Assembly (NCBI RefSeq): GCF_006716425.1 | Contig: NZ_VFOZ01000001.1 | Location: 2,418,001-2,482,000, forward strand | Length of the DNA: 64,000 nt | Direction of reading: 5' to 3' | Source of the DNA: Actinoallomurus bryophytorum | Lineage (GTDB): Bacteria > Actinomycetota > Actinomycetes > Streptosporangiales > Streptosporangiaceae | Shown here: positions 57,613 through 59,453 of the stretch, piece by piece | Position numbering within the stretch: the first letter of the stretch is position 1 | How the letters are laid out: the number at the start of each line of letters is the position of its first letter | Translations under genes and position numbers: made by a program | Notes under the pieces: generated by a model | What the model was told of the DNA's origin: nothing | Databases searched by the model: none | Seen by the model: only the letters and a program-made list of their open reading frames with translations

Positions 57613-57732
57613 CGGCCTGTCTCGAAGTCGTCGGCCGGGACCCGCACCCGTCGTGGAGCCCACCCGCCGTGAAGCCCACCCGCCGTGAAGCCCACCCGCC
57701 GTGAAGCCCACCCGCCGTGAAGCCCACCCGCC
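57613..57732. repeat. Left part of the dispersed repeat interrupted by IS110
   Basis: GGCCTGTCTCGAAGTC (57614-57629) is the inverted end motif, followed by five 16-bp units of GTGAAGCCCACCCGCC type from 57653 to 57732 (the first has GTGGAG). The fifth unit ends where the IS begins. The same end motif and the GCGGGTGGGCTYC units occur in the uninterrupted copy at 10.73-11.03 kb. The end motif starts 14 bases after the menG stop. Confidence 0.75.
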
Positions 57733-57787
57733 AGTGAGAATGGTGGGGCAGGCGATGCTGGTGTGGTTTGGCTCTTTGCCCGCCCGA

Positions 57788-57955
57788 CCTCGTGAGTGAG
57801 TGTCTTTCCCCGGATCTGTCGGCCGTGCTGGTGTGTCTGCGGGGTGTGCGCTGGGCCGGTGCCGTGACTTGATAAGAGCTCGGCCTAGGAGCCTCATCAC
57901 TGGTCTGTCCGATGCACCGGCCCAGCGCGTGCCACGTCTCGTTTCCCTCACGAGG
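57788..57955 (+). ncRNA. Candidate IS110 bridge RNA
   Basis: CCTCGTGAG (57788-57796) pairs perfectly with CTCACGAGG (57947-57955), enclosing 168 bases. Inside, GCGCTGGGCCGGTGC (57848-57862) pairs perfectly with 57914-57928 around a 51-base loop that can fold further (GTGA with TCAC, GAG with CTC). IS110-group elements encode a bridge RNA of similar length in this 5' position that specifies target and donor DNA. The identification rests on position, size and structure; guide loops were not proven. Confidence 0.65.
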
Positions 57956-57970
57956 ATTGGCAGGTTCAGG

Positions 57971-59053
57971 ATGGCACGCAGGAGCAGGCGACCGGACAAG
58001 CGGCGGGTCGTGGGTGGGGTCGACACCCACCACGACACCCATCACGCCGCGGTGGAGTTGATGAACGGCGGCCGGATCGCGGACGCGCAGTTTCCCGCCA
58101 CGGTTGAGGGCTATGCGCGGTTGCTGGCCTGGATGGAAGGCTTCGGCCGGATCCACGCGGTCGGGGTGGAGGGCACCGGCTCCTACGGAGCGGGCCTGAC
58201 CCGGTACCTGCGCGGTCAAGGTGTCACCGTGGTGGAGGTGAACCGGCCCGACCGCCGTCAGCGCCGCAGTGTCGGTAAGTCCGATCCGTTGGATGCTTAT
58301 GCCGCCGCTGATGCGGTGCTGGCCGGCCGCGCCCGCGCACTGCCCAAAGGCAACGACGGGATCGCCGAATCGATCCGGGTGCTGCACCTGACCCGGACCG
58401 GAGCCATCAAGGCCCGCACCGCAGCCATCAACGAACTACGAGCCGTGCTGGTCACCGCACCGGCACAACTTCGCGAACACCTCACCGGCAAACCCACCCC
58501 GGCACTGATCAGCGCATGCGCACGGCTGCGCCCAGGCACCGACCTGACCGACCCGCTCCACGCCACCAAACACGCCCTCCGCGCGCTGGCCCACCGCCAC
58601 CAGCACCTGACCACCGAAATCGATGGTCTCAACCTGCACCTGAAAGCCTTGATCACCCAGACCCGCCCCGACCTGCTCGCCATTTACGGCGTCGGGGTCG
58701 AGACCGCCGCACAGCTGCTGATCACCTGCGGCGACAACCCCGACCGCCTCACCACCCCAGCCGCCTTCGCCGCTCTGTGCGGGGTGGCCCCGATCCCTGC
58801 TTCCAGTGGCAAGACCACCCGGCACCGGCTCTCACGCGGCGGAGACCGCCAAGCCAACCGCGCCCTCTACCTGATCACCATCACCCGCATGAGCCACTGC
58901 GCCCGAACCCGAACCTACGTCCAACGCCGCACCAGCCAAGGCAAACCCAAACCCGAGATCATCCGCTGCCTCAAACGCTACCTCGCACGCGAACTCTTCA
59001 AAGCCCTCACCAGCACAAACACCACACCCAGCGACCTACCAGCCGCCGCTTGA
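57971..59053 (+). CDS. IS110-family transposase (DEDD/bridge-RNA-guided recombinase)
   Basis: A 360-residue enzyme starting MARRSRRPDKRRVVGGVDTH. The N-terminal RuvC-like DEDD domain shows Asp in GGVDTHHDTHHAAVEL, Glu in VGVEGTGSYGAGL, and the final Asp pair in SVGKSDPLDAYAAADAVL. A coiled-coil linker follows, then the Transposase_20 domain with GVGVETAAQLLI and the likely catalytic Ser in IPASSGKTTRHRL, continuing RGGDRQANRALYLI. All key residues are present and the frame is intact, so the element may be active. Confidence 0.95.
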   Translation: MARRSRRPDKRRVVGGVDTHHDTHHAAVELMNGGRIADAQFPATVEGYARLLAWMEGFGRIHAVGVEGTGSYGAGLTRYLRGQGVTVVEVNRPDRRQRRSVGKSDPLDAYAAADAVLAGRARALPKGNDGIAESIRVLHLTRTGAIKARTAAINELRAVLVTAPAQLREHLTGKPTPALISACARLRPGTDLTDPLHATKHALRALAHRHQHLTTEIDGLNLHLKALITQTRPDLLAIYGVGVETAAQLLITCGDNPDRLTTPAAFAALCGVAPIPASSGKTTRHRLSRGGDRQANRALYLITITRMSHCARTRTYVQRRTSQGKPKPEIIRCLKRYLARELFKALTSTNTTPSDLPAAA

Positions 59054-59072
59054 CACCACATAAGAGCATCCA

Positions 59073-59213
59073 GGGGGAACCATCCCACTCACATTGTCCA
59101 GCGGGAACAGCGGCAGGCGAAAGTAGAGCGGGGTTCTGTGGATAACCCTGGCGGTGGCGCCACCCAGGCGGCACCACCAGGCAGCAGCACGACTTTGAGA
59201 CAGGGCCTGGCTA
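59073..59213. repeat. Right part of the interrupted dispersed repeat
   Basis: From GGGGAACCATCCCACTC through CGGGGTTCTGTGGATAACC to the end motif GACTTTGAGACAGGGCCTG (59190-59208) this is the inverse of the A part at 10735-10857, about 80% identical over 110 bases. It ends in CTAG, whose CTA is the stop codon of the DUF4229 gene. With 57613-57732 it gives a roughly 260-bp element bounded by inverted copies of GGCCYTGTCTCRAAGTC. Confidence 0.75.
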
Positions 59214-59453
59214 GTCGGCGTCCTCGCGGGCGGCGCCCTCGGCCATGTTGTCGCGGATGCGGCCTGCCCGCTCGGTCACCGAGTTGGAGACCGCGTCACG
59301 CTGGCGTGACAGCAGGACGAAGCTGATGACGCCGCTGATCAGAATGGCCAGCCCGAGCAGCAGAAATCCGCGTGCCCCGACCAGGAAGAGCACGCCGGCG
59401 GTGGCGGCGAACAGCGCGAGCCGCGAGAGGCTGTAGATGAGTACGGAACGCAT
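59211..59453 (-). CDS. DUF4229 membrane protein
   Basis: An 80-residue protein with two hydrophobic helices, LFAATAGVLFLVGARG and LLLGLAILISGVISFVLL, then SRQRDAVSNSVTERAGRIRD, the conserved hydrophilic tail of DUF4229. It is widespread in actinobacteria, often near menaquinone genes, with unknown function. Its TAG stop lies in the CTAG at the end of the dispersed repeat, so the final residues (AREDAD) may have been set by that insertion. Confidence 0.88.
   Translation of the reverse strand: MRSVLIYSLSRLALFAATAGVLFLVGARGFLLLGLAILISGVISFVLLSRQRDAVSNSVTERAGRIRDNMAEGAAREDAD

Follow-up and report, generated by a model that had tools for sequence, protein, structure and literature searches.

The question raised by this locus is whether the left end of an IS110-group insertion sequence of Actinoallomurus bryophytorum encodes a bridge RNA that could aim the transposase of the element. 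The element lies in a 64,000-nucleotide stretch of contig NZ_VFOZ01000001.1 (positions 2,418,001 to 2,482,000; hereafter the window, in whose coordinates all positions are given). An earlier note, made from the letters of the window alone, had placed such an RNA at 57788-57955. In this study, the element was compared with its other copies in the genome, with unoccupied copies of its target and with relatives from other genomes. These comparisons indicated that the left end very probably encodes a bridge RNA at approximately 57746-57930. Moreover, we are highly confident that this RNA is built on the plan of IS621 and belongs to the circle-to-repeat insertion mechanism proposed below. The location in the left end and the separate target and donor loops of the earlier proposal were upheld; its extent was not, as the start of the RNA lies about 40 bases before that of the segment, which lacks both the left target guide (57779-57785) and the 5' arm of the target loop.

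Guides, targets and donor ends

The 9.47-Mb genome (3 contigs; G000) carries five copies of the element, L001 (the window copy) to L005. Over the stretch matched, the other four show 98% identity to the window copy, the outer flanks differ among the five, and the transposase frame is intact in 5/5. All five copies are inserted in a dispersed repeat, with one insertion point and one orientation in common. The signature of this repeat gave 62 matches, of which 55 are unoccupied, five adjoin the element copies and two have a different, unrelated-looking middle, and CCCGCCCGGGGGTG occurs 42 times in the genome, always at one offset inside repeat copies (compared by eye). Among the 34 unoccupied copies fetched, the uninterrupted site is exactly CCCGCCCGGGG in 31 and CCCACCCGGGG in the other three, and the unoccupied target reads CCCGC-CC-GGGG in 31/34. 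The left junction is CCCGC-C-AGTGAG in 5/5 occupied copies. At the right junction, the window copy and L005 read GCAT-C-CAGGGGGAACC and the other three GCAT-C-CGGGGGTG. The earlier note had read the target from the flanks of the window copy, of which the right one, CCAGGGGGAACC, is atypical; the unoccupied repeats read CCGGGGGTG.

The relatives came from 47 of 341 genomes of the family (E <= 1e-90, with at most five candidates per genome scored) and from 12 loci in named genomes. Of 77 loci, 19 were left out (same left end as another locus, or truncated, composite or unclear left ends), as was L148, for which no junction was set, so that 57 loci with 42 distinct guide regions remained. No right end was recognised in three of the 42 (L050, L151 and L147), hence the sample of 39 used where a right end was needed. 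All counts cover related elements, not independent events. In the right-guide test, in the donor-guide and core counts and in the repetition of the guide tests without hand-set junctions, L001 was represented by the right target of the unoccupied site in place of its own. For L057 and L058 the anchor was misplaced in the right-guide test, and both were kept there and in the donor-guide and core counts.

The guides of the window copy, CCCGC-CC and CCCC-GG, jointly match the unoccupied target, and the same relation was found across the relatives. The left guide copies the left target with 349 matches in 42 elements, compared with 267.9 (standard deviation, SD, 5.3) when the targets were permuted, and it matches over 10/10 bases in L068 (TTTCCGGCAC), L152 (GTGGGACAAC) and L082 (ATCGGCTGAC). 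For the right guide, which reads as the reverse complement of the right target, contiguous matches numbered 176 in 39 elements against 61.9 (SD 6.5) in permuted sets, with a run of 8 bases in L065 and L152. In 17 of the 57 loci, the left junction had been placed manually while the guide was visible; when these were removed, the left test still gave 249 against 195.3 (SD 4.8, n=30) and the right test 126 against 46.8 (SD 6.2, n=29). Of the two segments that the earlier note had offered as a pair of target guides, TTTCCCCGG (57805-57813, one base from the position given) contains the right guide. The other, CTGCGGGGTG (57837-57846, likewise one base off), is not a target guide, because L064, with the left target ACCAAACC, keeps CTGCGGGGTG, and the model alignment places this segment between the loops, in the linker.

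The donor guides followed the element ends in the same manner. The left donor guide matches the right end over 8/8 bases in 34 of 39 elements, over 7 in two and over 2-4 in three that are out of register. The right donor guide carries a base complementary to the second core base of the donor in 42/42 elements (21 A:T and 21 T:A). The left end of the element, which holds the RNA, is long (approximately 240 bases), and the right end is short, with 16 bases after the stop codon. TTGAC was found in the right end of 38/39 elements (TTGACA in 31), 19 or 20 bases before the core, and a -10-like GANNNT, a weak match seen by inspection in elements related by descent, stands in the left end, 17 or 18 bases downstream in a circle. 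This arrangement fits a promoter formed on excision, as described for IS621 in the passages of PMC11208160 available to us.

The left ends of the relatives share a common order. The 5' part consists of the outer stem, left guide, small hairpin, right guide, a conserved GATCTGTCGG, outer stem and linker, and the 3' part of the donor stem, a ATAGGAGC-like left donor guide, a small hairpin, a CATCACTG-like right donor guide and the donor stem. Since RNAalifold on the whole alignment placed the variable-length arms poorly, the analysis relied on arm swaps and on a structure written by hand. In the arm swaps (five of the 42 left out: L057, L058, L147, L144 and L151), the outer stem of the target loop had a mean of -39.2 kcal/mol with its own arms and -27.3 with swapped arms, and own arms beat the swapped mean in 35/37 elements. 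The corresponding values for the donor-loop stem were -35.2 and -27.4 kcal/mol (n=37, permutation SD 0.68), with own arms better in 34/37 and the window copy at -46.8, rank 2 of 37. This donor-loop stem is the 15-bp stem with a 51-base loop of the earlier note (GCGCTGGGCCGGTGC and GCACCGGCCCAGCGC), which is present as described, is kept as a helix in relatives and encloses the donor guides.

A covariance model, R1, was built with 15 hand-set pairs from 30 relatives, none from this genome; 34 of the 42 were candidates (without L057, L058, L050, L001, L147, L151, L144 and L158), of which L140, L087, L141 and L134 were not used. Under this structure, 93.3% of 449 alignment cells were paired, against 79.3% after shuffling, and the covariation score was 0.468, against 0.216 (SD 0.019) for shuffled alignments and 0.07-0.16 for slid structures. 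On the window, the model matched 57746-57922 with 87.7 bits (E 4.6e-19), and the next of nine matches had 10.2 bits. In the whole genome it found the five copies (87.7 bits four times and 82.3 for L005), a degenerate relative at 36.9 bits and one further weak match (22.6 bits, E 0.06). The degenerate relative (L006 / L165, G000:C1:4702230-4702954) is 70% identical to the element over part of its length. Stem covariation and a relation of the loops to their targets, whose lack the earlier note had named as contrary evidence, were therefore both found.

The intact DEDD transposase on which that note had relied was likewise borne out by the open frame and by Pfam matches above the cut-off to DEDD_Tnp_IS110 (PF01548, 83.9 bits) and Transposase_20 (PF02371, 67.1 bits). 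The protein also matches those of IS621 (8wt6) and ISCro4 (9t56) with E 6.9e-12. Residues D11, E60, D102, D105 and S241 are given as catalytic in IS621 in the available part of PMC11208158. D18, E67 and S279 align with IS621 D11, E60 and S241, and D105 and D108, in a KSDPLDA motif outside the printed alignment, were assigned by eye from the motif. The features are collected in Table 1.

Table 1. Features of the element and its flanks in window coordinates
Feature	Positions	Strand	Basis
IS110-group element, shared core C (left) to shared core C (right)	57732..59070	+	Five copies compared with 34 unoccupied sites
Left target half CCCGC and core C (target DNA)	57727..57732	+	Unoccupied sites
Element left end: donor core CA and right donor (CA-GTGAGAATGG)	57732..57743	+	Junctions; second core base against guide
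Predicted bridge RNA; donor stem runs on to about 57930	57746..57922	+	Covariance model R1
Outer stem of target-binding loop, 5' arm	57748..57772	+	Arm swaps; helix covaries in relatives
Left target guide CCCGC-CC	57779..57785	+	Alignment with relatives; permutation test
Small hairpin between target guides (GACCTC...GAG-T-GTC)	57786..57804	+	Fold; three pairs counted (helix 2, 97.8% paired)
Right target guide CCCC-GG	57808..57813	+	Six contiguous matches to unoccupied right target; family permutation test
Outer stem of target-binding loop, 3' arm; 57822-57834 differ as a block in L005	57818..57840	+	Arm comparison
Donor-loop stem, 5' arm, GCGCTGGGCCGGTGC	57848..57862	+	Arm swaps
Left donor guide ATAAGAGC, copies element right end	57872..57879	+	8/8 match
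Small hairpin between donor guides (GGC...GCC)	57882..57893	+	Model alignment; one pair G-C/U-A covaries (19 and 9 of 30)
Right donor guide TCACTG, pairs with CAGTGA of left end	57897..57902	+	Complementarity
Donor-loop stem, 3' arm, GCACCGGCCCAGCGC	57914..57928	+	Arm swaps
Transposase/recombinase, 360 amino acids	57971..59053	+	Open frame, Pfam matches, IS621 alignment
TTGACA, overlaps stop codon; candidate -35 box of a promoter that would be completed on end joining in the circle	59050..59055	+	Putative function
Element right end: left donor ATAAGAGCAT and core C	59060..59070	+	Right-end alignment
Right target flank of window copy (CCAGGGGGAACC), unlike unoccupied repeats (CCGGGGGTG)	59070..59081	+	Comparison with unoccupied sites

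In the proposed mechanism, excision would give a circle in which the right end is joined to the left end, completing a promoter with the TTGACA of the right end, from which the RNA would be transcribed. The 5' loop of this RNA, closed by the outer stem, would address the target, with a left guide (CCCGC-CC) that copies the top strand, a right guide (CCCC-GG) complementary to the top strand and a small hairpin separating the two. The second loop, inside the 15-bp stem, would address the donor, with ATAAGAGC for the right end of the element and TCACTG for the left end. The DEDD recombinase would use the RNA to bring the circle junction to CCCGC-CC-GGGG in the dispersed repeat, and insertion would follow there in one orientation. 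We infer the transcription, promoter, binding, catalysis and activity of the window copy from these sequence relations.

Several observations were made on the targets themselves. The repeat is intergenic-looking and dispersed, with approximately 55 unoccupied copies (window 59070-59215; unoccupied loci L009-L042), and it was not found in 7 other genomes of the genus (E <= 1e-10). The minus strand carries TTATCCACA, which we take to be the DnaA-box consensus, in 34/34 fetched repeat copies. Positions 57650-57731, which border the insertion point on its left, hold tandem copies of a GTGAAGCCCACCCGCC-like unit of 15-16 bases, and many of the unoccupied repeat copies have similar arrays on that side. 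Among the relatives, the clade L122-L133 (G158, G240 and G124) is inserted directly after the stop codons of genes (TGA-C), with a guide that ends in CTGAC. The clade of L152, L157, L091 and L146 is inserted in a sequence that would read WDNLN, presumably as in some transposase genes, and the frame is kept in 8/8 unoccupied matches.

Core bases of donor and target

In IS621, the core is CT in both partners, according to the passages available from PMC11208160 and PMC11208158. In the present study, the donor core is CA or CT and the target core is CN, so that the first base alone is common to the two. The second base of the target core is C in 18, A in 13, G in 6 and T in 2 of the 39 elements, and its complement stands in the right guide in 37/39. 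The second base of the donor core is A or T; it equals that of the target in only 2/39 and differs in 37/39. Unoccupied versions of two other targets are consistent with a single shared C. For GAGCGCTTGAG-NAC-ATCACGCTC, 31 of 32 matches in the 338 genomes searched fit a single shared C and the other has a longer spacer, and for GTGTGGGACAACCTCAACACCCA, all 8 matches in 338 genomes fit it. A two-base overlap would be expected to yield some copies with exchanged bases. In seven multi-copy sets (23 copies), the second core base of the left junction is constant within each set, and the right side varies, being C, C, C, G and T in G158.

These data make it somewhat more probable than otherwise that this actinomycete branch of the IS110 group recombines through a single shared core base, with the second base read separately by the donor and target loops. 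As one C would be shared between donor and target, no base would be lost at insertion. The loss of one C on insertion had been considered and was rejected, since one shared core base accounts for the junctions with no base missing. Strand-biased repair could mimic this pattern, and the junction pattern used had itself required C and then A or T. No description of a single-base core was met in the literature passages available, and one could stand in the figures or supplements of those papers.

Weighing the alternatives

Several points weigh against the reading of this locus as a bridge RNA. Searches of Rfam returned no family match. The right flank of the window copy itself matches the right guide over 2 bases only, against 6 in the unoccupied repeats, and the right flank of the stop-codon clade (G158, G240 and G124) is hardly constrained. 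Two of the five covariation measures were weaker, namely pair changes on both sides (9 against 7.0, with 31/500 shuffles reaching 9) and further pair types (28 against 23.7, reached by 3/500 shuffles). In addition, the outer stem of the target loop in the window copy gains nothing over swapped arms (-23.6 against -24.3 kcal/mol, rank 20 of 37) and relies on many G.U pairs. The last point bears on the most serious alternative, that the locus is a bridge RNA by descent and that the window-type copies (L001-L004) no longer work, the block 57822-57834 having weakened the outer stem and the copies having spread or changed by exchange with one another and not by transposition. That rank contrasts with the 35/37 elements that beat swapped arms, L005 carries another block and forms a stronger duplex (-27.6 against -23.6), and L001 shares both its atypical right flank and its 3' gene end with L005, suggesting exchange. 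Nevertheless, the arms of the window copy are still able to pair over 23 positions with G.U pairs, all five transposase frames are intact and the outer flanks differ, and we regard loss of function as a possible but distinctly less probable account, to which about a quarter of our belief is given.

The sequences on which this account turns also deserve description in their own right. The 13-base block 57822-57834 is common to four copies and wholly different in L005, with the remainder nearly identical, and the four-copy block resembles the opposite arm in the same sense at 11/13 positions (reached by 217/100000 shuffles). A break of the outer stem of the window copy by this block was considered and rejected, as the stem can form from the full arms through G.U pairs. 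L001 and L005 also have the same 3' gene end and a common atypical right flank (CCAGGGGGAACC...CTCAC; window 59070-59090), in which L002-L004 differ. This suggests a sequence exchange between copies that extended into the flank.

The structured segment might instead be a cis-regulatory leader of the transposase mRNA, with the likeness of loops and target due to chance in G+C-rich DNA. In favor of this account, the 9-bp stem with which the earlier note had closed its segment (CCTCGTGAG at 57788-57796 and CTCACGAGG at 57947-57955) does exist, has its 3' end no more than 16 bases from the start codon and is strong here (-24.9, rank 2 of 40). However, this stem is not conserved in the relatives (own mean -17.59 against -17.26 permuted, SD 0.44; L057 and L058 left out of the 42), and the loops track target and donor across the relatives far beyond permutation, which leaves a leader very improbable. 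The 5' arm of the 9-bp stem also coincides in part with the small hairpin of the target loop. Equally improbable, in our judgment, is a choice of site by the protein or by properties of the repeat, such as its shape or bound proteins, with the RNA as a scaffold only. All five copies do lie in one repeat family, as such a choice would have it. However, relatives with other guides occupy other targets that match those guides, and guide-directed insertion is established for IS621 in the part of PMC11208160 available to us. The bridge RNA with its four guides is accordingly the reading that we prefer.

Relation to known systems and meaning

Comparisons with published systems refer to the passages of the cited papers that were available. 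The preferred bridge RNA resembles that of IS621 (PMC11208160 and PMC11208158) in its place in the left end, in the order of target loop before donor loop, and in left guides that copy the top strand and right guides that pair with it. The TTGACA-type promoter element split over the ends, the short right end, the target in a dispersed repeat and the DEDD plus Ser protein are likewise shared. Unlike in IS621, the core CT is not common to donor and target, which have one base (C) in common, and as far as these passages go CT is not defining for the whole IS110 group. The RNA lies upstream of the transposase, as does the IS110-type seekRNA (PMC11187229), whereas in the IS1111 group the same source places the RNA downstream with its segments in reverse order; here it is upstream, and the right end has 16 bases. 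ISCro4 (PDB 9t56) belongs to the same protein family, a likeness drawn from protein comparison alone. As with the elements that insert into repetitive extragenic palindromic (REP) sequences (PMC1525189), an IS110-type element is found here at one set position within a high-copy intergenic repeat, although this repeat is, as far as known, unrelated to REP sequences.

In conclusion, what began as a guess from sequence is now a well-supported bridge RNA, in which all four guides have been placed and the earlier positions corrected. The guides of the relatives amount to a naturally reprogrammed series, with a dispersed repeat, stop codons and genes among their targets. If recombination does proceed through a single shared base, the shared two-base core of IS621 would not be a general rule, and the donor and target cores would be independent of each other. 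Moreover, either strand cleavage or junction resolution would have to depart from that of IS621. A single shared core base would be a definite and testable departure from IS621, one that bears on how these recombinases cut, resolve and are aimed.
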